Below are positions 10,297-21,601 of a DNA stretch of 64,000 bases, piece after piece (position 1 is the stretch's first letter; each line of letters opens with the position of its first letter). This stretch comes from Rhodobacteraceae bacterium bin131 (GTDB lineage Bacteria; Pseudomonadota; Alphaproteobacteria; Rhodobacterales; Rhodobacteraceae). The translations under genes were made by a program, and so were the position numbers. The stretch spans positions 27,501 to 91,500 of the forward strand of contig MPNP01000003.1 in assembly GCA_002239085.1 (NCBI GenBank), in the 5' to 3' direction. The notes beneath the pieces are model-generated. The model ran no database searches. It was not told the DNA's origin and saw only the letters and a list, made by a program, of their open reading frames with translations.

Positions 10297-11859
10297 CTAC
10301 ACCCTTTGCAAAATGTATTCGTCAATATTTTTGACCTGCTCTTGGTTGACATTGAGTCCAAGCTTAGAGCGTCGCCAAAGGAAATCATCGGCACAACATA
10401 CCCATTCTTTATCAATCGTCCAATCAAGTTCTCTTTGGTAAATTGTTACGCCAAAATCAATGCCAAGGTCATTAACGTCACGAGCATCCTTTAACATCAA
10501 AAAGGCATCAGTTCCATACGATTGAAAGAGCCTTTGTGCCCAAGCCGTAGTTAAAAACGGAAATAAGGATTTGAGTTCAAGTGTCCGTTCTTTCACCTGA
10601 TCAAAACGAAAATCACCACCGGGTATCGGTGTGGAACTAGTCCAAGACCCATGCTTATTGTTGAGTATTGGTGCTATCTTATCAACGGCTGCCTCGGCTA
10701 ACTTGCGAAAAGTTGTTAATTTACCTCCTAAAATATTCAGTATTGGTGCTCCACCATCGGTGTTGACTTCAAGTTTGTAATCTCTTGTAGTTTTGGTCGC
10801 TGAGCTTGAACCATCTTCAATGAGGGGACGAATCCCAGAATAGGTCCAAAGAATATCTTTTTCACTGAGGGAAGTTTTGAGATACTCAGAGGCAACAGAT
10901 AAGAGATAGTTTTTTTCTTCTTCTGTACATTGAGGCAGTTTATTGATATCCGAATGGTCTGAGTCAGTTGTCCCAATTAGAGAATAATTTTTTTCGTAAG
11001 GGATAATGAAAATAATTCGACTGTCAGATCCTTGGAATATGTAGCATTTTTCATGATCGTAGAGTTTTCTTGTTACTATGTGGCTGCCGCGGACAAGCCG
11101 AATATGTTTGCGATTATTGTTTCTTATAGTTTGGCTGAGAAACTCATCAACCCATGGACCCGCCGCGTTAATAAGAATTTTTGATTGGATGGTTTGTTTG
11201 ATCCCTTGTGCATCCAGTTCAATTTGCCAGATGCCATCTTGTACGTAACACTTAACCACTTTGGTTCTGGTCATAATTTGAGCACCAAGATTACCGGCGG
11301 CACGAGCGTTAAGAGCTACAAGTCGAGAGTCATCAACCCAACAATCAGAGTACTCAAAGGCCTTTTTGAAATGCTCCTTTATTGGTTCGCCTGCTTGGTC
11401 TTGAGTTAAGTCAACCACCGCCATTTTAGGCAGGATTGTTTGACCAGCAAAACCGTCATATAAGATTAATCCAAGTTGAATGAGCCAAGGCGGGCGTCTC
11501 CCACGCATCCAAGGAATTATGGAAGTTAGTAGTTTAGAAGCAGGGGTGGTTTCTTCAAATCGCATCTCATTGTGAATGGGTAAGATAAATCGTAACGGCC
11601 AAGCAATGTGTGGCATGTTTTTGAGGAGAATGTCGCGCTCTTTCAAGGACTCCCTGACCAAGCGAAAATCAAAATATTCAAGATATCTCAATCCGCCATG
11701 AAGAAGTTTAGTTGAAGCACTTGAAGTGGCCGAGGCAAGGTCATGCATTTCTGCCAAAGCAACTTTCATACCCCTACCAGCAGCATCTCGTGCAATTCCA
11801 CAGCCATTAATCCCGCCACCAACGATAAAAATGTCATAGATTGGTGGATCAGATGACAT
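10297..11859 (-). CDS. glpD: aerobic glycerol-3-phosphate dehydrogenase GlpD
   Basis: Membrane-associated flavoenzyme that oxidises sn-glycerol-3-phosphate to dihydroxyacetone phosphate and feeds electrons to ubiquinone. The 520-residue protein has the usual length. The N-terminal FAD-binding motif is FIVGGGINGCGIARDAAGRG (residues 10-29), followed by the family block SSASTKLLHGGLRYLE and, later, GTTDSDH and the GGKLTTFR motif that closes the FAD site. It overlaps glpR by 11 bases and probably shares its transcript. The divergent glycerol importer supplies substrate once glycerol is phosphorylated. Confidence 0.95.
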   Translation of the reverse strand: MSSDPPIYDIFIVGGGINGCGIARDAAGRGMKVALAEMHDLASATSSASTKLLHGGLRYLEYFDFRLVRESLKERDILLKNMPHIAWPLRFILPIHNEMRFEETTPASKLLTSIIPWMRGRRPPWLIQLGLILYDGFAGQTILPKMAVVDLTQDQAGEPIKEHFKKAFEYSDCWVDDSRLVALNARAAGNLGAQIMTRTKVVKCYVQDGIWQIELDAQGIKQTIQSKILINAAGPWVDEFLSQTIRNNNRKHIRLVRGSHIVTRKLYDHEKCYIFQGSDSRIIFIIPYEKNYSLIGTTDSDHSDINKLPQCTEEEKNYLLSVASEYLKTSLSEKDILWTYSGIRPLIEDGSSSATKTTRDYKLEVNTDGGAPILNILGGKLTTFRKLAEAAVDKIAPILNNKHGSWTSSTPIPGGDFRFDQVKERTLELKSLFPFLTTAWAQRLFQSYGTDAFLMLKDARDVNDLGIDFGVTIYQRELDWTIDKEWVCCADDFLWRRSKLGLNVNQEQVKNIDEYILQRV

Positions 11860-12640
11860 GGTGGCTTTCCATGGAATTATCCTGAAGTGAAATTATCTCC
11901 GTACGCACTTTTGTAGCAACATCCAGGAATTCTTGCGGGGGAATTCCGTCGGTAATAAAGTAGTCTAATTCCGCAAGTCCACAGATTCGAACAGGAGCAT
12001 TTATCTTAAACTTTGAACAATCGGAGACAAGAATGCGCGTACGCGAATTGTGCAAAATAGCCCTGGCAACAGTAACCTCCCTTTGGTCAAAATCAAGTAT
12101 TGACCCATCGCTATCAAGCCCAGAAGCGCCAATAACAGCAAAATCAACTTTATACCGAGAAATAAATTCTACTGCTTCGCCCCCGACAACGGCTCCATCT
12201 TCTTGTCTCACATGCCCTCCAGCGAGAATCAAATCTTTGTTTGTGGTACCTGCTAGGAGGTTAATGATGTTAGTGTTGTTGGTGATGACAGTTAGTCCCG
12301 AATGGCCGATTAGGGATCGGGCAACCTGTTCGGTGGTTGTGCCAATATTGAGAGAGACGGAGCAGTCATTTGGAATCAATAAAGCGGCTCGAACTCCGAT
12401 TGCTTTTTTTTCATCTTGGTATAGTTTGCGCCGACTTATGTAATCATGGTTAGTGATTATCTTCAAGCGAATTGCGCCCCCATGGGTCCGTTTAAGTATC
12501 CCTCGGTCAGATAGATCATTGAGGTCAAGGCGAATCGTTTGCGTGGTGACATCAAACAATTTGGCAAGCTCCTCTACCCATACAGATCCTTGGGAGTTGA
12601 TTAAATCAATTATTTTTTGCCTGCGGTGTTCAAGTTCCAT
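11849..12640 (-). CDS. glpR: DeoR-family glycerol-3-phosphate regulator GlpR
   Basis: A 263-residue repressor-type regulator. Residues 1-57 form a DeoR winged helix (RRQKIIDLINSQGSVWVEELA, TTQTIRLDLNDLSDRGILKRTHGGA); the C-terminal sugar-phosphate isomerase-like domain contains the ligand loop SLNIGTTTEQVA and AVIGASGLDSDG. It precedes glpD in one transcription unit and is divergent from the glycerol ABC operon, so it should control both by binding the intergenic palindromes, with glycerol-3-phosphate as likely inducer. Ligand assignment is by family and context. Confidence 0.9.
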   Translation of the reverse strand: MELEHRRQKIIDLINSQGSVWVEELAKLFDVTTQTIRLDLNDLSDRGILKRTHGGAIRLKIITNHDYISRRKLYQDEKKAIGVRAALLIPNDCSVSLNIGTTTEQVARSLIGHSGLTVITNNTNIINLLAGTTNKDLILAGGHVRQEDGAVVGGEAVEFISRYKVDFAVIGASGLDSDGSILDFDQREVTVARAILHNSRTRILVSDCSKFKINAPVRICGLAELDYFITDGIPPQEFLDVATKVRTEIISLQDNSMESHHVI

Positions 12641-12745: not shown

Positions 12746-14485
12746 ATGCATAAAATTTTGTTTGCTATTTTGTCTGCAATGACACTAGTGGTCTTCAGCA
12801 GTGCTGCTCGTGCCGATATGGCCGCTGCTGAGACATGGGTTGATAATGAATTCCAACCCTCAGTGCTTAGTCGCGACGAGCAGTTAGCCGAAATGGACTG
12901 GTTTATTGAAGCCGCCAAACCTTTCGCAGGCATGGAAATCAATGTACTTTCCGAGAGTATTCCAACTCATACCTATGAATCATCAGTTCTCACAAAAGCG
13001 TTTGAAGAGATAACTGGAATCAAGGTAAATCACCAAATTCTTGGTGAGGGCGAGGTCGTACAGGCTGTTCAAACACAAATGCAAACCGGTCGCAATCTTT
13101 ACGATGGTTACGTCAATGATTCAGATTTGATTGGAACGCATTCACGTCTACAGCTGGCTTATAATCTAACCGAAATGATGTCTAATGACTGGGCTGCAAC
13201 GACGTCTCCAACACTTGACCTAGACGATTTTATGGGAATTCAGTTTACCACTGGCCCAGACGGTAATCTTTACCAATTACCTGATCAGCAATTTGCTAAC
13301 TTATACTGGTTTCGTAAAGACTGGTTTGATCGGGAGGATTTGCAAGCGGCGTTTGAGGCCAAATATGGCTATCCACTAGGGGTTCCAGTTAACTGGTCGG
13401 CCTATGAAGATATCGCTGAGTTCTTTTCCAATGATGTTCAAGAAATTGATGGCGTTCCCATTTATGGACATATGGACTACGGTAAACGTGCTCCAGATCT
13501 CGGTTGGCGAATGACAGATGCTTGGCTATCAATGGCCGGAGCAGGTTCAATTGGTGAACCAAATGGTGTTCCCGTTGATGAATGGGGCATTCGTATGGAA
13601 GCCGGAACTTGCAATCCTGTTGGTGCTTCGGTATCTAGGGGGGGGGCAGCAAATGGTCCTGCGGCTGTATATGCCATTCGAAAATGGGATGAGTGGCTTC
13701 GAAATTACGCTCCTCCGGGTGCGGCATCTTATGATTTCTATCAATCATTGCCGGCATTGAGCCAAGGCAATGTGGCTCAACAGATTTTCTGGTATACTGC
13801 TTTTACTGCGGATATGGTTAAACCGCTGTCTGAGGGGAATAATACTGTTGATGCTGATGGCAACCCTCTTTGGCGTATGGCTCCATCACCGCACGGACCC
13901 TATTGGGAAGAAGGTCAAAAAGTTGGATACCAGGATGTTGGATCGTGGACATTTCTTAACTCCACGCCTTCCGATCGTGCTCAAGCAGCATGGCTCTATG
14001 CTCAGTTCGTGACTTCCAAGACCGTGGACACCAAAAAAAGCCATGTTGGTTTAACCTTTGCACGTGATAGTTCAGTAAGGCATGACAGCTTTACCGAGCG
14101 AGCTCCGAAACTGGGTGGATTAGTTGAATTTTATCGTTCACCCGATCGCGTCCGCTGGTCACCAACGGGAATTAATGTTCCAGATTATCCCAAGTTGGCA
14201 CAAATTTGGTGGCAACAAATCGGTGATGTTAACTCTGGTGCGTTTACTCCACAACAAGCAATGGACCGACTTGCCTCTGAGATGGATGTCACTATGGCTA
14301 GAATGCAAGCGGCCGATGAAGCCTCAGGAATCTATGGTGGGTGCGGCCCTCGTCTTAATGAGGAAAGAGATCCAAGTTATTGGCTGAATCAACCGGGTTC
14401 ACCAAAGGCTAAACTTGATAATGAGAAGCCACAGGGTATGACCGTTAACTATGACGAATTAATCGTTCGTTGGCAGTCGCAATAA
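12746..14485 (+). CDS. glpV: glycerol ABC transporter substrate-binding protein GlpV
   Basis: Periplasmic binding protein of 579 residues, longer than most sugar-binding proteins and typical of the rhizobial glycerol transporter GlpV. A Sec signal peptide (MHKILFAIL..., cleavage after AARA near residue 23) leads into an extracellular solute-binding type 1 fold (ITGIKVNHQILGEGEVVQAV, GNLYQLPDQQFANLYWFRKD, QAMDRLASEMD). It is first in the glpVSTPQU operon and has a strong ribosome site. Odd feature: an uninterrupted run of nine G residues at 13638-13646 lies inside the coding region. A perfect hairpin follows the stop. Confidence 0.92.
   Translation: MHKILFAILSAMTLVVFSSAARADMAAAETWVDNEFQPSVLSRDEQLAEMDWFIEAAKPFAGMEINVLSESIPTHTYESSVLTKAFEEITGIKVNHQILGEGEVVQAVQTQMQTGRNLYDGYVNDSDLIGTHSRLQLAYNLTEMMSNDWAATTSPTLDLDDFMGIQFTTGPDGNLYQLPDQQFANLYWFRKDWFDREDLQAAFEAKYGYPLGVPVNWSAYEDIAEFFSNDVQEIDGVPIYGHMDYGKRAPDLGWRMTDAWLSMAGAGSIGEPNGVPVDEWGIRMEAGTCNPVGASVSRGGAANGPAAVYAIRKWDEWLRNYAPPGAASYDFYQSLPALSQGNVAQQIFWYTAFTADMVKPLSEGNNTVDADGNPLWRMAPSPHGPYWEEGQKVGYQDVGSWTFLNSTPSDRAQAAWLYAQFVTSKTVDTKKSHVGLTFARDSSVRHDSFTERAPKLGGLVEFYRSPDRVRWSPTGINVPDYPKLAQIWWQQIGDVNSGAFTPQQAMDRLASEMDVTMARMQAADEASGIYGGCGPRLNEERDPSYWLNQPGSPKAKLDNEKPQGMTVNYDELIVRWQSQ
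13638..13646 (+). repeat. G9 homopolymer inside glpV
   Basis: Nine consecutive G bases encode part of S-R-G-G-A in glpV. Such tracts are prone to slippage; one base gained or lost would truncate GlpV at about half length. Exceptional in this AT-rich sequence. Confidence 0.9.
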
Positions 14486-14540: not shown

Positions 14541-15617
14541 ATGATTGAACTCAAAGGGGTATCAAAACTCGTTGGCAAGGTGGTTCATATCAAGCCAACT
14601 ACGATGATTTTGGAACCAGGACATTTTAATATATTACTAGGTGCGACTGGATCAGGAAAAACATCACTTATTAAACTTATTGCCGGGCTTGATTCTGTGT
14701 CAACGGGTCAAATTGTGGTTGACGGTCAAGACGTGACTCGAATTAATACTCAACAACGTAATGTAAGTCTTGTTCATCAATTCTTTGTCAATTATCCAAA
14801 TATGACTGTATTTGAGAACATTGCTTCTCCATTGAGAGTTGCGAGATTAAGATCTATTGACATTCAATCCAAAGTAGAAGAGGTGGCTAACCTCTTACAA
14901 CTCGGGCCAATGTTATCGCGTTATCCAAACGAACTATCAGGTGGACAACAGCAACGTACAGCTCTTGCTAGGGCAATTGTCAAAGAGAGTAAAGCGATAT
15001 TCCTTGATGAACCTCTTGCCAATCTAGATTATAAACTGCGTGAAGAACTCCGTGAGCAACTTCCAACATTGTTTAAGGACCGTGGCAGTGTGGTCGTTTA
15101 CGCGACATCAGAACCAGAGGAAGCCTTGATGTTAGGAGGTAAGACAGCATTACTCGATGATGGGCATGTTTTACAATATGGACCGACTGCAGAAATTCAT
15201 CGTAACCCAACAAGTCTTAATGCCGCAAAAGTGTTTTCAAATCCCCCCATTAACTCAATTGCGATAACTAAGAAAGGTAAGATGGCACAGCTTAAGAATG
15301 GCTTGAAATGGCTTCTAGAGGGCTCTTCTTCTCAATTATCCGATGGTAACTATATCATGGCGATTCATCCACATCACATATCACCCATAAGAACGTGTGA
15401 GACCGACATTGAGTTAGGCGGAGAAGTGATTGTCACTGAATTATCCGGTTCTGAATCAAGCGCACGTTTTAAATGTGCCGAAAATATCTGGGTATCTCTT
15501 ACTTCAGGTGTGCATCCTTACAATGTTGGTGAGCATCATGATTTTTATATGAATCCAAAAAATTGTTACTATTTCACTCCTGACGGTAATCAAGCGGTAG
15601 ATCGTGGCACAGATTAG
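14541..15617 (+). CDS. glpS: glycerol ABC transporter ATPase GlpS
   Basis: One of two 358-residue ATPases of the glycerol importer. It has a normal Walker A (GATGSGKTS, about residue 34), Q-loop (HQFF), intact ABC signature LSGGQQQR and Walker B AIFLDEPLANLD. The switch (H-loop) histidine is missing: the expected VTHDQ-like segment reads YATSEPEEA. A C-terminal TOBE-like domain follows. It overlaps glpT by 14 bases. Its intact signature but absent H-loop complement the opposite defects of GlpT, implying one working and one degenerate ATP site in the pair. Confidence 0.92.
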   Translation: MIELKGVSKLVGKVVHIKPTTMILEPGHFNILLGATGSGKTSLIKLIAGLDSVSTGQIVVDGQDVTRINTQQRNVSLVHQFFVNYPNMTVFENIASPLRVARLRSIDIQSKVEEVANLLQLGPMLSRYPNELSGGQQQRTALARAIVKESKAIFLDEPLANLDYKLREELREQLPTLFKDRGSVVVYATSEPEEALMLGGKTALLDDGHVLQYGPTAEIHRNPTSLNAAKVFSNPPINSIAITKKGKMAQLKNGLKWLLEGSSSQLSDGNYIMAIHPHHISPIRTCETDIELGGEVIVTELSGSESSARFKCAENIWVSLTSGVHPYNVGEHHDFYMNPKNCYYFTPDGNQAVDRGTD

Positions 15618-16680
15618 ATTGTCAGATCTTAAACACAGCTATTATCCTGATCCTAATGCGGCTGAGGATTATGCTCTCAAAGAAATTAATCTCACTTGGA
15701 AAGACGGCGGGGCATATGCTTTGCTTGGGCCCTCAGGATGCGGCAAAACTACACTTCTTAATATTATTTCTGGTTTGTTAACACCCTATCAGGGAGAAGT
15801 ATTTTTTGATGGTGTAAACGTAACACGGGAGCCACCTGATCGTCGTAATATCGCCCAAGTTTTCCAATTTCCAGTGATCTACGATACGATGTCAGTCTGG
15901 GATAATCTTGCGTTTCCCTTAAAAAATCGTGGTGCAGATAATAACGAAGTAGCACGCAGGGTCAATGAAATTGCCGAAATGCTTGAAGTCACTCCTTTGC
16001 TCAAGGTTCAAGCCGCTGGATTAAGTCCTGACAATAAGCAAAAGATTTCTTTGGGGCGCGGACTCGTTCGCGAAGATGTCAATGTGGTGATGTTTGATGA
16101 ACCTCTAACTGTCATTGACCCGCATTTAAAATGGCAATTACGATCAAAACTTAAGGAACTCCACCAAAAGGTGGGTATTACAATGATTTATGTCACTCAT
16201 GATCAGACGGAGGCTCTTACTTTTGCCGATGAGGTTGTCGTCATGAATGATGGTGAAGTTGTACAAATTGGAACACCAGTTGAACTATTTGAACGACCCG
16301 AGCATACATTTGTAGGTCATTTCATAGGATCTCCTGGAATGAATATTATTGCATGCGAAGCTGAGGGAAAAAAGGCAAGGTTTGAGGGATTTGAAGTTGA
16401 ACTTGAGGGCCCGATTACCGATTCAAAAGGATTTCTGGCAATAGGTATTAGGCCTGAGCATGTATCAGTAAGTCATCATAAAGGTATACCAGCTCGATTA
16501 GCTAAAGTTGTTGATTCAGGACGGCATTATATTGTGAACGCTTGGGTCGGTAAAACTGAAATTAAAGCCATAACATACGAACCTTTACCAGGACTTAATT
16601 CTGAAATTTATCTGACATTTCAGCCAGAAAAAACTAGAGTTTACTGTGATGGTCGGTTAGCAACAGAGGTGACGCCTTGA
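15604..16680 (+). CDS. glpT: glycerol ABC transporter ATPase GlpT
   Basis: Second 358-residue ATPase of the glycerol importer. Walker A (GPSGCGKTT), Q-loop (FQFP), Walker B with catalytic Glu (VVMFDEPLTVID) and switch His (VTHDQTEA) are intact, but the ABC signature is degenerate: where LSGGQ is expected it reads LSPDNKQKISLGRG. The C-terminal TOBE-like domain includes GIRPEHVSVS. It overlaps glpS and, by four bases (TTGA/ATGA type), glpP. This is not the unrelated glycerol-3-phosphate antiporter also called GlpT in E. coli. Confidence 0.9.
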   Translation: MAQIRLSDLKHSYYPDPNAAEDYALKEINLTWKDGGAYALLGPSGCGKTTLLNIISGLLTPYQGEVFFDGVNVTREPPDRRNIAQVFQFPVIYDTMSVWDNLAFPLKNRGADNNEVARRVNEIAEMLEVTPLLKVQAAGLSPDNKQKISLGRGLVREDVNVVMFDEPLTVIDPHLKWQLRSKLKELHQKVGITMIYVTHDQTEALTFADEVVVMNDGEVVQIGTPVELFERPEHTFVGHFIGSPGMNIIACEAEGKKARFEGFEVELEGPITDSKGFLAIGIRPEHVSVSHHKGIPARLAKVVDSGRHYIVNAWVGKTEIKAITYEPLPGLNSEIYLTFQPEKTRVYCDGRLATEVTP

Positions 16681-17540
16681 AAACAGTCAATCAAAAAGGG
16701 TGGTTATTTGTATTGCCGGTATTGTTCTTGGTTACCTTCAATGCCCTGATTCCCATGATGACAGTTGTGAACTATTCGGTACAGGAGACATTTGGCAACA
16801 ATCAATTTTTCTGGCAAGGTTTAGATTGGTTTGAACAAATATTAAGATCGGACCGTTTTCAAGCTGCTCTGAGTCGCCAGTTTCTGTTTACAGCAACTAT
16901 ATTAGCTATTGAAGTTCCTTTGGGTGTGATTATTGCACTCTCAATGCCAAGAAAAGGATTCTGGGTACCCATATGTTTGGTACTCATGTCAGTTCCAATG
17001 CTTATTCCATGGAATGTTGTTGGGGCCATGTGGAACATTTTCACACTCCCCAAAATAGGTATGCTTGGATACTTCATGAATGATGTTCTAGGCATCCAAT
17101 ATGACATGACCCAAGATCCACTTGCGGCGTGGATCACAGTTGTCGTTATGGATGTTTGGCATTGGACTTCGCTGGTCGTTTTGCTTTCGTATGCCGGTCT
17201 TGTATCTATTCCTGATGCGTTTTATCAGGCCGCCAAAATTGATGGTGCTTCAAGTTGGGCAGTATTTCGCTATATTCAGCTTCCCAAAATGAAAACTGTT
17301 CTAACGATTGCTATTCTGTTGCGGTTTATGGACAGCTTTAACATTTACACTGAGCCCTTCGTTCTAACCGGTGGTGGGCCAGGTAACTCAACGACATTAT
17401 TGTCAATTGATTTGGTAAAAATTGCTCTCGGACAATTTGATTTAGGACCAGCAGCTGCTATGAGCTTAATTTATTTTGCCATAACGCTATTGGTGAGTTG
17501 GGTCTTTTACACACTGATGACAAAGGATGATCAAAAGTGA
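16677..17540 (+). CDS. glpP: glycerol ABC transporter permease GlpP
   Basis: Inner-membrane permease of 287 residues with about six membrane segments. The cytoplasmic coupling motif that docks to the ATPases is seen as EAA-like PDAFYQAAKIDGASSWAVFRYIQLPKM. It starts with TTG at 16677, overlapping the glpT stop, and overlaps glpQ by four bases. MalF-type partner of GlpQ. Glycerol specificity is inferred from the operon and from the rhizobial glpSTPQUV system. Confidence 0.9.
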   Translation: MKTVNQKGWLFVLPVLFLVTFNALIPMMTVVNYSVQETFGNNQFFWQGLDWFEQILRSDRFQAALSRQFLFTATILAIEVPLGVIIALSMPRKGFWVPICLVLMSVPMLIPWNVVGAMWNIFTLPKIGMLGYFMNDVLGIQYDMTQDPLAAWITVVVMDVWHWTSLVVLLSYAGLVSIPDAFYQAAKIDGASSWAVFRYIQLPKMKTVLTIAILLRFMDSFNIYTEPFVLTGGGPGNSTTLLSIDLVKIALGQFDLGPAAAMSLIYFAITLLVSWVFYTLMTKDDQK

Positions 17541-18334
17541 ACACAAGAAATCTCATTCCCATTTTATATATCCTTTTTTTGATGTTGCCAATTTATTGGC
17601 TCCTCTCCATGAGCTTCAAAACAACGAATGAAATTCTATCTGGGTTTTCGTTATTTCCCAAGACATTTACGCTTGATAATTACATCACGATCTTTACCGA
17701 CCCAACTTGGTACTGGGGTTATTTGAATTCCATTTTTTATGTATCGATAAATACCGTTTTATCTGTCGCCGTTGCCTTGCCGGCAGCGTATGCGTTTTCG
17801 CGGTATAGATTTCTCGGTGATAAGCAATTGTTCTTTTGGTTGCTCACCAATCGTATGGCTCCTGCGGCTGTCTTTGCTCTTCCCTTTTTTCAATTGTATT
17901 CCTCAATTCAATTATTTGATACGCATTTGGCTGTTGCATTAGCCCATACTCTTTTTAATGTTCCCTTGGCTGTATGGATTCTTGAAGGATTTATGCGCGG
18001 AATTCCAAAAGAGCTTGATGAGACTGCCTTTGTTGATGGATATGGATTCGGTAGGTTTTTTGTCGTCATTTTTCTACCGAATATTAAAGCGGGCGTTGGA
18101 GTCGCCGCATTTTTTTGTTTTATGTTTTCTTGGGTTGAAATGTTGTTGGCAAAAACATTAACAGCCGTAGAAGCAAAACCCATTGCAGCGGTAATGACGC
18201 GGACCGCTTCAAGCGCTGGATATGAACTTGGATTGTTAGCTGCGGCGGGTGCCCTCACGATTATTCCGGGTGCCATAGTGATTTGGTTTGTCCGCAACTA
18301 CATTGCCCGCGGTTTTGCCCTCGGGAGGGTCTAG
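17537..18334 (+). CDS. glpQ: glycerol ABC transporter permease GlpQ
   Basis: Second permease, 265 residues, MalG type, six predicted membrane segments starting with PILYILFLMLPIYWLLSMSF. The EAA coupling loop reads PKELDETAFVDGYGFGRFF. Starts at GTG 17537 in a GTGA overlap with the glpP stop. One base separates its TAG from the next ORF's start. Not the glycerophosphodiesterase GlpQ of enterics. Confidence 0.9.
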   Translation: MNTRNLIPILYILFLMLPIYWLLSMSFKTTNEILSGFSLFPKTFTLDNYITIFTDPTWYWGYLNSIFYVSINTVLSVAVALPAAYAFSRYRFLGDKQLFFWLLTNRMAPAAVFALPFFQLYSSIQLFDTHLAVALAHTLFNVPLAVWILEGFMRGIPKELDETAFVDGYGFGRFFVVIFLPNIKAGVGVAAFFCFMFSWVEMLLAKTLTAVEAKPIAAVMTRTASSAGYELGLLAAAGALTIIPGAIVIWFVRNYIARGFALGRV

Positions 18335-18335
18335 C

Positions 18336-18737
18336 ATGCGATTGTTAATTCCATTAGTTCTTCTTCCTGAAACCGTTTTAGCTCAAGCTCAATCGGGTTG
18401 GGGAAATGTTGGTCAAAAAGAGGAGCAGGGGTTCTCATGGACTCAACCCTTATGGCCAGAGTTATGGATGGCTTGGACACCGGCAACGTTTGCCTTCTTT
18501 GTTGGAATCCTTTCGTCCATAGCTTGTATCGGTTTACTTGAAATATTTATTTTCCGCGATGGTATTGAGCGAAAAGGAGTGTTTGGCTTAACAACTACTC
18601 TTGGGGACCGGTTATTTATTTCGCTGTTAGGGTCGGCATTTATTTTTTTGGCATGGTTAGGTGTGTTCGGTCAACCCATATGGATTCCCGTTATTGTCGC
18701 CATGGCATGGATGATATTTGTTTTTGCAAAGGTATAA
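18336..18737 (+). CDS. glpU: small membrane protein of glycerol transporter, DUF2160 (GlpU)
   Basis: A 133-residue protein starting at ATG 18336, one base after glpQ; the longer ORF-track start would lie inside glpQ. An N-terminal signal-like segment (LLIPLVLLPETVLAQA) is followed by a soluble stretch and then three hydrophobic segments (TFAFFVGILSSIACIGL, LFISLLGSAFIFLAWLGV, WIPVIVAMAWMIFVF). This matches the DUF2160 family found as GlpU in rhizobial glycerol transport operons, where its exact role is unclear. Last gene of the operon. Confidence 0.85.
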   Translation: MRLLIPLVLLPETVLAQAQSGWGNVGQKEEQGFSWTQPLWPELWMAWTPATFAFFVGILSSIACIGLLEIFIFRDGIERKGVFGLTTTLGDRLFISLLGSAFIFLAWLGVFGQPIWIPVIVAMAWMIFVFAKV

Positions 18738-18923
18738 CCATTCGTATTCCGACTTGGGTCTAAGGGGTCACGTTTGGCATGGTGGTTATGGCATTGATTC
18801 ACTCAATACTCTTCTGAATGATTATCATATTATCAGTCAAGGCCTTGAGCCATCTAGCAAATCCAATTAATCCTTCCTAAATACTCTCCTCTATAGCCTT
18901 AAGAATAGATAGGAAAATTGAAT

Positions 18924-19778
18924 ATGGAATCTGAGATACAAGATACACCAACCAAAGGGTCATGGTTAGCGCGCGTGAGACGTAAAATATTCCCCAAAAA
19001 AGAAAAGCCCTTGGTGGCAGTCATTCGCTTGGAGGGAATCATTGCCGCGAGTGCAACGGTTCGCCAAAATCAAATCAGTGATCATACACTTGAACCCATT
19101 ATTGGAAAGGCATTCAAAAAGGGTAAACCTAGAGCCGTTGCGTTGGTGATCAATTCCCCTGGCGGGTCACCCGTGCAAAGTGCTTTGATTGCCAGCCGGA
19201 TAAGAAACTTGGCTAAAGAGAAAAGTATTCCTGTCTATACGTTTATTGAAGATGTGGCCGCTTCAGGGGGGTACTGGCTAGCCGCTGCCGGTGACGAAAT
19301 CTACACCGACCCAAGTTCAATCGTTGGCTCAATCGGGGTTATCTCATCAAGTTTCGGTTTTACCGACTTAATCAAGAAAATCGGGGTTGAAAGAAGAGTT
19401 CACACGGCGGGTAAAAATAAGAATATCCTTGATCCATTTCTTCCAGAAAATCAAGATGATATTGATATACTCAAGGGTATTCAAACCGAGATTCATAACC
19501 AATTCATTGACTATGTCAAAGACCGTAGAGGTGATAAAATACAAGATGAGACTGTGTTCACGGGTCAGTTCTGGACAGGCACAAAGGCCATTGAAATGGG
19601 TCTTGCTGACCAAATCGGCCATCTTGCTCCAACAATGAAGGCAAAATTCGGAGAAAAGGTACGGTTCATGCACTACACCAAGAAAAAGAAATTTTTATCT
19701 TCCCTTAGCTCCCAACTAGCCGAAGCATTGCTTGGTGTCCTCAAATCCGAAGCGCTTTGGGCTCGTTACGGTCGTTAA
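18924..19778 (+). CDS. sohB: S49-family peptidase (SohB/SppA-like)
   Basis: Serine peptidase of the signal-peptide-peptidase A family, 284 residues from ATG 18924, which has AGGA nine bases upstream; the track's TTG start has too short a spacer. The core carries VALVINSPGGSPVQSALIAS, the nucleophile Ser region VAASGGYWLAAA and the conserved VGSIGVISS; the Lys of GKNKNILDPF is the likely general base. Unlike SppA it has only one protease domain and no obvious N-terminal membrane segment, only a basic region (RRKIFPKKEK). Convergent with the next gene with a 6-base gap. Substrates unknown. Confidence 0.88.
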   Translation: MESEIQDTPTKGSWLARVRRKIFPKKEKPLVAVIRLEGIIAASATVRQNQISDHTLEPIIGKAFKKGKPRAVALVINSPGGSPVQSALIASRIRNLAKEKSIPVYTFIEDVAASGGYWLAAAGDEIYTDPSSIVGSIGVISSSFGFTDLIKKIGVERRVHTAGKNKNILDPFLPENQDDIDILKGIQTEIHNQFIDYVKDRRGDKIQDETVFTGQFWTGTKAIEMGLADQIGHLAPTMKAKFGEKVRFMHYTKKKKFLSSLSSQLAEALLGVLKSEALWARYGR

Positions 19779-19784
19779 TCGATC

Positions 19785-21290
19785 TTATTCTTTTTGGTTT
19801 TGGATTGCTGCTATTTCAGCCGTGATATCTTTTGTTTGACTGTACAATCTCTTGAAAAGAGGATATGTTTTCTCGTAAATGGGCTGCGATTGAGCGGTAA
19901 TCGATTGCTTAATCGGGTTCCATTGGGTTATATCTTCCTTTTTAACCCGGCCTAAGGCGAGTGCGGCTAAAAATGAATTTCCATAGGATGCTCCAAGGGA
20001 ATGCTTACAAATATGCTGATCAATGTTACACATGTCCGAAGTCGATTGAATCCAAGTATTGTTTTTTGTTCCTCCGCCAACAGCAATTACCTTGCTGGGA
20101 AATGCTCCCGCATCTTGATAGGTATCCAAAACCCATCGAGTTCCTGTTGCAATCCCTTCTAACAACGCCCGAAACATGTCAGCCCGACTATGGGTAAGAT
20201 TGAGTCCACAATACATTCCCCGAGCATTGGGGTCGTGAATCGGCGTTAATCCACCAGAGAAGTAGGGCAGAAATAGCAAGCCATTTGCACCCGATGGTGA
20301 TTGGGAGGCTTCAGCTTCAAGCCGTGAAAATATATCCTGAGTTGACAAATCTTTGGCAAAACGGTCTTTAAACCAGTGTGTTAGGGTTCCCGCCGTTGGT
20401 ACACTTGCCATTACTGCAAACTGGTTATGAAACAGCCACGGTGCATACCAAAGCTGAGGATTGGATTTTTTCTCATTTTCAAGCTCAATTATGAAAATGG
20501 TTGAACCATACATCATCATCATGTCACCATTATCCTGAACTCCGATACTAACGGCTTCAGCCGCGGCATCAATTGTTCCACATGTGACAGGAGTTCCGGG
20601 CATCAGCCCTGTTTTCTCGGCAGCCTTTGGTGTTAAAGTGCCAATGATATCACTAGACCAAGCAAGTTTAGGTAACATGTCTAGGGGTATTTCGCTTGAG
20701 AGTTCATCGGTCCAGTCAAGGCGAGTAATATCATACCAAGGAGCAAAATTGACGGCAGTAAAATGGTCAATCACATATTCTCCAGTCAGCTGATAAACAA
20801 CGTAACTCGTTGAAGTGAGAATTTTTGAAGTCTGGCGCCAGAGGTCAGGATGGGTTTGTTTAAACCACAAGGCTTTTGGCCCTGTAGACTGAGTTGTCAA
20901 TGCATTACCACATTGTCGGAATATTCTATCGCCACCGATTTGTTCTGTGAGTTCCTTAATTTGGGATGTTGAACGAGTGTCAACGCCGTAAAGAATCCCA
21001 TTAGTGAGAGGGTGCCCTTCTTGATTGACCGGTAGCATACATGGTCCAATCGCTGAAGTTGCTATTCCAATAATTTGTTTTGGGTCAATATCAGAAGAGT
21101 GAAGCAGTTTATTGGCAATAAACACAAAGTCATCCCACCAATCCTCATTGGGTCGATGCTCTGCCCAACCGGGGTGGGGTACAATAAGCTTGTGAGGTTT
21201 TGATGCCGAGGCAATGACGTGTCCATGTAGATCCGCAATGACCCCTTTGGTTTCATAAGTGCCGATATCAATCCCTAAAGTATATTCCAT
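19785..21290 (-). CDS. FGGY-family carbohydrate kinase
   Basis: ATP-dependent sugar or polyol kinase, 501 residues from ATG 21290; the TTG five codons earlier is less likely. N-terminal phosphate loop LGIDIGTYETKGVIAD, substrate region PGWAEHRPNEDWWDD, a central GTIDAAAEAVSIG and the C-terminal adenosine motif VIAVGGGTKNN identify the family. It is closer to xylulokinase-like members than to glycerol kinase, whose start usually reads LDQGTTSSR. It is the only sugar/polyol kinase in the window, so a role in glycerol phosphorylation next to the glp locus is possible but unproven. Confidence 0.87.
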   Translation of the reverse strand: MEYTLGIDIGTYETKGVIADLHGHVIASASKPHKLIVPHPGWAEHRPNEDWWDDFVFIANKLLHSSDIDPKQIIGIATSAIGPCMLPVNQEGHPLTNGILYGVDTRSTSQIKELTEQIGGDRIFRQCGNALTTQSTGPKALWFKQTHPDLWRQTSKILTSTSYVVYQLTGEYVIDHFTAVNFAPWYDITRLDWTDELSSEIPLDMLPKLAWSSDIIGTLTPKAAEKTGLMPGTPVTCGTIDAAAEAVSIGVQDNGDMMMMYGSTIFIIELENEKKSNPQLWYAPWLFHNQFAVMASVPTAGTLTHWFKDRFAKDLSTQDIFSRLEAEASQSPSGANGLLFLPYFSGGLTPIHDPNARGMYCGLNLTHSRADMFRALLEGIATGTRWVLDTYQDAGAFPSKVIAVGGGTKNNTWIQSTSDMCNIDQHICKHSLGASYGNSFLAALALGRVKKEDITQWNPIKQSITAQSQPIYEKTYPLFKRLYSQTKDITAEIAAIQNQKE

Positions 21291-21601
21291 ACATTTTCTC
21301 TTCAATTACTCAACAAGATAAGACTGATGAATTCAGCTCCGATAAATCCGATTTTAAGGTATTGAATTCATAATTCCAAAGCAAAAAATTAATCAATGAT
21401 GAACACAGTGATTAAGCGGTAATCATGCAGTCAGCTATTGTTAATAAAACTGTTTTTGTTTGCCAATGGAAGAATTGTGAATAGCAGTTTATGAAATTAT
21501 TTTCATACACTATTCTAATATAAGAATAGGGCTAGCAACGTACTCGGCATATTAACCTTAAATTACAATGACTTAAATCCGACTTGAAGGATAGGCGTGA
21601 G
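21291..21601. other. intergenic region between FGGY kinase and SDR gene
   Basis: About 310 bases with divergent promoters expected. No gene was seen. Two adjacent inverted repeats stand out: TATGAAA/TTTCATA (21490-21507, 4-base loop) and CTATTCT/AGAATAG (21510-21529, 6-base loop). They lie nearer the plus-strand SDR-uvrC unit and may be operator sites or overlap its promoter. Confidence 0.4.

Follow-up and report, generated by a model that had tools for sequence, protein, structure and literature searches.

How many ATP sites does a binding-protein-dependent importer need? The question is raised by two adjoining genes in the window, by which we mean the whole 64,000-nucleotide stretch of DNA analysed here. 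They encode a pair of MalK-type ATPase subunits, GlpS and GlpT, each of which departs from the canonical ABC motifs. GlpS (14541..15617, forward strand) is an open reading frame of 358 aa with an ABC_tran match, for which the best NCBIfam model is UgpC (229 bits, under the cut-off). GlpT (15604..16680, forward strand), also 358 aa, starts with GTG, shares a 14 bp overlap with the glpS gene and likewise has UgpC as its best NCBIfam model (285 bits, under the cut-off), together with a weak OB_MalK match. AlphaFold models, each of a monomer, contain an ABC domain and a C-terminal OB-type domain in both proteins and match full-length MalK structures; that of GlpS (pLDDT 87.7) resembles MalK 2r6g and 3puy with TM up to 0.87 and that of GlpT (pLDDT 87.3) matches MalK 9bcr with TM 0.89.

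The first-pass annotation had described GlpS as keeping LSGGQ without a switch His, and GlpT as keeping its Walker motifs, catalytic Glu and His with LSPDNKQ at the signature position; both descriptions hold when the frames are read directly. GlpS retains Walker A as GATGSGKT (14640..14663), the Q-loop as VHQ, the signature LSGGQ (14934..14948) and Asp156-Glu157, the Walker B and catalytic residues of LDEP (15006..15011), all on the forward strand. The switch-His position is occupied by Ser190 (15108..15110, forward), within YATSEPEEAL; among 142 GlpS sequences this position is Thr in 116, Ser in 26 and His in none. Alignment with E. coli UgpC also revealed a feature missed by the earlier annotation, namely the loss of the A-loop aromatic: GlpS has Val11 (14571..14573, forward) where UgpC has Trp13, and Val occupies this position in 129 of the 142. 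The fourth residue of Walker A is Leu in 109 of 142 and Gly in 16, with the Lys and Thr invariant; retention of this Gly in the window GlpS, as in its own clade, is thus the minority state.

GlpT, for its part, has Walker A as GPSGCGKT (15727..15750), a VFQ Q-loop, its catalytic Glu in FDEP and a switch His, His199 in YVTHDQ (16198..16200), that is present in all of 141 orthologues. What is altered is the signature position (LSPDNKQ, 16021..16041), which reads L[TSAG][APV]DxKQ in 141/141, and the D-loop, which is TVIDP (16108..16122) and not of the NLD type; all of these lie on the forward strand. In the D-loop Thr, Ile and Asp are invariant, and Val and Pro occur in 140 of 141. Leu140, Asp143, Lys145, Gln146, Gly151 and Arg152 are invariant in all 141 GlpT sequences, and the signature helix is predicted to be intact, spanning residues 142-154 and starting at residue 142.

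Where these changes would fall in a dimer follows from the standard ABC arrangement, in which each site combines the Walker A/B motifs and the A-, Q- and H-loops of one subunit with the signature of the other (PMC7756269). There are five family-wide departures: the A-loop, the Walker A Gly (in most orthologues) and the switch His of GlpS, and the signature and D-loop of GlpT. On this layout all five map to the site formed by GlpS in cis and GlpT in trans, and none to the site formed by GlpT in cis and GlpS in trans, where the LSGGQ of GlpS would meet the Walker motifs of GlpT to make a canonical site. The D-loop is placed by established ABC dimer geometry, with dimerisation itself inferred. 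The alignments of the family, in which the altered residues are confined to one composite site with the other intact, thereby bear out the earlier proposal that both defects share the GlpS-Walker/GlpT-signature site.

To what substrate might such a machine be dedicated? The locus had been identified as a Rhizobium-type glp ABC operon and the gene set matches, so that the operon appears, from its gene content, to be this known glycerol importer set. The order is GlpV (periplasmic solute-binding protein, SBP_bac_1, 12746..14485), GlpS, GlpT, the permeases GlpP (16677..17540) and GlpQ (17537..18334), both BPD_transp_1, and the small membrane protein GlpU (18288..18737; DUF2160, PF09928, 98 bits), all on the forward strand; the start codon of GlpU is uncertain and its listed ORF overlaps GlpQ. 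One search pattern for the coupling-helix (EAA) motif, used to compare GlpP with GlpQ, found no match in GlpP. Divergent from the operon, on the reverse strand, are genes for a GlpR-like DeoR-family repressor (11849..12640; best model 224 bits, under the GlpR equivalog cut-offs) and the glycerol-3-phosphate dehydrogenase GlpD (10297..11859; NF008899, 693 bits against a cut-off of 360). Downstream, an ORF that by eye resembles an SppA-type signal peptide peptidase (18918-19778) lies between the transporter operon and an FGGY-family kinase gene (19785-21305). This kinase scores best as a xylulokinase (290 bits, under the cut-off) and reaches 161 bits against the GlpK cut-off of 590, so no GlpK adjoins the operon. 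Elsewhere in the assembly a 91-codon open frame at a contig end (C370:6873-7133) resembles the C-terminal part of glycerol kinase, the rest of that gene being absent from the assembly. No aquaporin/GlpF-family match was found in the genome. Orthology, the GlpR-like and GlpD neighbours and the absence of GlpF together point to glycerol as the probable substrate. In PMC7912956, which cites Ding et al. 2012, glpSTPQUV of R. leguminosarum VF39 is given as a characterised glycerol importer, with glpD and glpK flanking the transporter genes; in C. metallidurans the genes lie nearby but outside one operon (PMC7912956).

Are the changes peculiar to this genome? We compared operons from two samples, (i) the window genome and 61 further DUF2160 carriers among 299 genomes from the phylum, and (ii) the best 80 GlpS relatives in a species-level genome collection. 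A complete adjoining GlpT accompanies 141 of the 142 GlpS genes, the exception (L105) being at a contig end, and the fetched operons share the gene order context of the window. In every one of the 141 pairs GlpS has LSGGQ without the His and GlpT has the His without LSGGQ; orthologues with a GlpS His or a GlpT LSGGQ were sought among these pairs and none was found. The pairs represent 86 clusters that share less than 80% GlpS identity and come mostly from Alpha-, Beta- and Gammaproteobacteria (Rhodobacteraceae, Rhizobiales, Rhodospirillales, Pelagibacteraceae, Burkholderiales and Gammaproteobacteria), together with one Desulfuromusa MAG. Because neither motif change varies among them, both changes appear to be older than the spread of the GlpST family. 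Ala188, Ala195 and Leu196 of GlpS are invariant in 142/142 and, given the equally invariant Asp143, Lys145 and Gln146 of GlpT, both loops are under constraint; the invariance of the three GlpT residues further indicates a degenerate site that is conserved and not decaying.

We regard it as probable, with good confidence, that GlpS and GlpT form a heterodimer with one fully equipped site, the other being slow or inactive and serving as an interface, itself conserved, that has a structural role or holds nucleotide. In this model the two subunits would assemble as an obligate head-to-tail heterodimer driving a MalFGK2-like, binding-protein-dependent glycerol importer. GlpT Walker A, Walker B and His, with the LSGGQ of GlpS, would make up the sole fully equipped hydrolytic site. 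At the opposite site, made of GlpS Walker A/B and the GlpT L-[TS]-[AP]-D-x-K-Q loop and devoid of switch His, A-loop aromatic and signature glycines, ATP would be hydrolysed slowly or never. Hydrolysis at one site only is likely on the motif evidence, and approximately one ATP would then be spent per transport cycle. The heterodimer assembly, the identity of the hydrolysing site, the role of the second site and the substrate are all what we infer from these comparisons. Since exporter degenerate sites can be required for full function, as in ABCB2/B3 and Pdr5 (PMC7756269), a conserved non-hydrolytic role for the altered GlpST site is plausible by analogy. Nucleotide binding with slow turnover at the GlpS site is possible because the Walker A Lys, Asp156 and Glu157 are retained.

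Within this one-site explanation sits a sub-case, for which our confidence overlaps with that in the whole, in which the degenerate site never binds nucleotide and is a structural protein-protein hinge, ATP being bound by GlpT only. The absence of the A-loop aromatic from nearly all GlpS, the substituted fourth Gly of Walker A in most of them and the invariant Asp in the GlpT loop are consistent with such an empty site. Nevertheless, GlpS keeps the Walker A Gly-Lys-Thr, the Q-loop Gln and the Walker B Asp, which would be unexpected in a nucleotide-free site, and the Walker A Gly is kept in the window's own clade; we consider this sub-case rather unlikely.

A different possibility is that ATP is hydrolysed at both sites of an ordinary two-ATP machine, in which the Ser/Thr of GlpS and the LTADxKQ loop provide a compensated alternative chemistry. 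Retention of the Walker A Lys-Thr, the Asp and the catalytic Glu in GlpS, and the strong conservation of the altered residues with no sign of drift, would suit such a scheme. Some H-loop substitutions are tolerated in other proteins, the ABCC1 NBS2 H-loop Gln and Asn mutants showing normal transport (PMC7756269), and the Ser/Thr of GlpS might possibly be a partial functional stand-in for the switch His. Against this, the H-loop mutants MalK H192R and HisP have less than 2% ATPase activity (PMC6222333), the A-loop aromatic and both signature glycines are gone, and an invariant Asp would face the gamma-phosphate, which argues against a productive sandwich. On balance we judge two-site hydrolysis to be improbable.

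It is also conceivable that GlpS and GlpT are not mutual partners, one or both of them homodimerising or joining a different MalK-type ATPase of the cell. At least 18 further MalK-type ATPases are present in the genome, and such ATPases can be shared among importers, as MsmX-like proteins are. Nonetheless, the two genes co-occur strictly in tandem at 141 loci, and their divergence is correlated (Mantel r 0.87, with 0 of 999 permutations as high), although this correlation also reflects the shared ancestry of the operons and alone is no proof of GlpS-GlpT contact. Moreover, GlpS2 would lack the switch His and GlpT2 the signature, each in both of its sites, and it is because either homodimer would have two crippled sites that obligate tandem pairing fits. 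Altogether we see very little room for other partners. Random pseudogene decay, sequencing error or chance, for which departure from the consensus is the only argument, is effectively ruled out by intact ORFs and a pattern that is invariant across 141 loci from many genera.

It had further been claimed that such asymmetry is uncommon among importers, and this did not withstand comparison. The same layout is present in E. coli LivF/LivG and RbsA: in a control alignment LivF has MSGGEQQ and VEQN at the signature and switch positions and LivG has LAYGDQR and IEHD, while RbsA has LSIGDQQ and ISHR in its first half and GLMGAGRT, LSGGNQQ and VSSE in its second. It recurs in 30 of 30 LivG-LivF pairs from other genomes, in a sample picked by similarity to E. 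coli LivG, and in three of four Liv pairs and five of five fused CUT2 ATPases of the present genome. In LivF (L153, L167, L173, L208-L237 and E. coli L206) the SGG is kept and Gln or Lys replaces the switch His; LivG of the same loci keeps the His and has LxYG-type signatures.

Our survey of the genome itself covered 89 aligned ATPase stretches around GlpS-like matches, so that ATPases unlike GlpS may escape it. Among these, the switch His is absent from ten domains, namely GlpS, five RbsA-like second halves and four LivF-like proteins. Nine of these have a partner with the His and an altered signature; the partner of the tenth is canonical. The latter is a Liv pair (L170:912-2402) in which a LivF without the His stands beside a LivG with canonical LSGGQ, and it is possibly a half-way state. 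The Opp/Dpp-type pairs of the genome retain both signature and His, and all 18 surveyed MalK-type paralogues retain the LSGG core and the His. What is distinctive in GlpST, judging from the alignments, is its membership of the MalK/UgpC family, whose other surveyed members in this genome are canonical, and the replacement of both signature glycines, with an invariant Asp in the second place. For RbsA and NupO, degenerate sites have already been published (PMC11466899); in the open-access literature we found no paper on unequal ATP sites in GlpST or LivFG.

With regard to origins, GlpS and GlpT each form one clade (100/100) on a long stem. Derivation of both from the duplication of one gene was considered and is not adopted, as the tree leaves their sisterhood without resolution (support 77/32, with a long-branch warning). 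Four distant DUF2160-like loci (L064-L067) have an SBP, two permeases and a single ATPase that carries both LSGGQ and the His. The altered pair may thus be the derived state, and these loci are possibly relatives that keep the ancestral homodimer. More tentatively, and with somewhat more doubt than belief, we raise the idea that the altered GlpST site, with its invariant Asp where a signature Gly would face the gamma-phosphate and its Thr/Ser for the switch His, is a purpose-built, conserved non-hydrolytic element and that CUT1, fused CUT2 and HAAT LivGF importers converged separately on the same split, with the signature but no His in one subunit and the His but no signature in the other. If this were true, importing with one ATP site would be a common and largely unremarked mode. 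ATP-site asymmetry has been discussed almost wholly for exporters, yet our comparisons point to widespread importer classes that have it. GlpST, being MalK-type, can be contrasted directly with MalFGK2, the best-studied importer, reportedly crippled by one damaged ATPase subunit. It is this comparability that makes GlpST a natural pair for asking how many ATP sites importers need, and the question testable.

To go by its title, Davidson & Sharma 1997 found that a single MalK mutation severely impairs maltose transport; for the histidine permease, the title of another paper states that one intact subunit suffices (both cited in PMC6222333). Compared with MalFGK2/UgpC-type (CUT1) importers, GlpST shares the ATPase fold and family and the permease type, but theirs is an ATPase homodimer with two canonical sites and GlpST is a probable heterodimer with one. 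A close counterpart is GlpSTPQUV of VF39, which also has two ATPases, two permeases, a small membrane protein, an SBP and GlpR/GlpD neighbours. Rhizobial plasmid GlpS homologues share about 45% identity with GlpS of the window, and GTDB rhizobial loci have the same GlpS/GlpT motif pattern. The differences are that the SBP gene is last in VF39 and first here (V-S-T-P-Q-U), and that here the nearby FGGY kinase scores nearer xylulokinase, with no adjoining GlpK.

RbsA-type CUT2 ATPases are alike in that one composite site is intact and the other degenerate: NBD1 has an altered signature and the His, and NBD2 has LSGGN and no His. Unlike GlpST, they are a single fused chain in another importer class, the second NBD often also lacks the Walker A Lys, and the first signature Gly is altered with the second usually kept. 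LivG/LivF of the HAAT importers are encoded, like GlpS and GlpT, by separate genes, LivF having SGG without the His and LivG the His with an altered signature; however, they are not MalK-type, and only their first signature Gly is changed (to Y, F or L), whereas GlpT has replaced both (by A or P, then Asp). Finally, in heterodimeric exporters (TM287/288, TAP, MRP1, CFTR and Pdr5) signature and cis changes likewise share one site (PMC7756269), but there the catalytic Glu, which GlpS keeps, is often lost too and the direction of transport is opposite.
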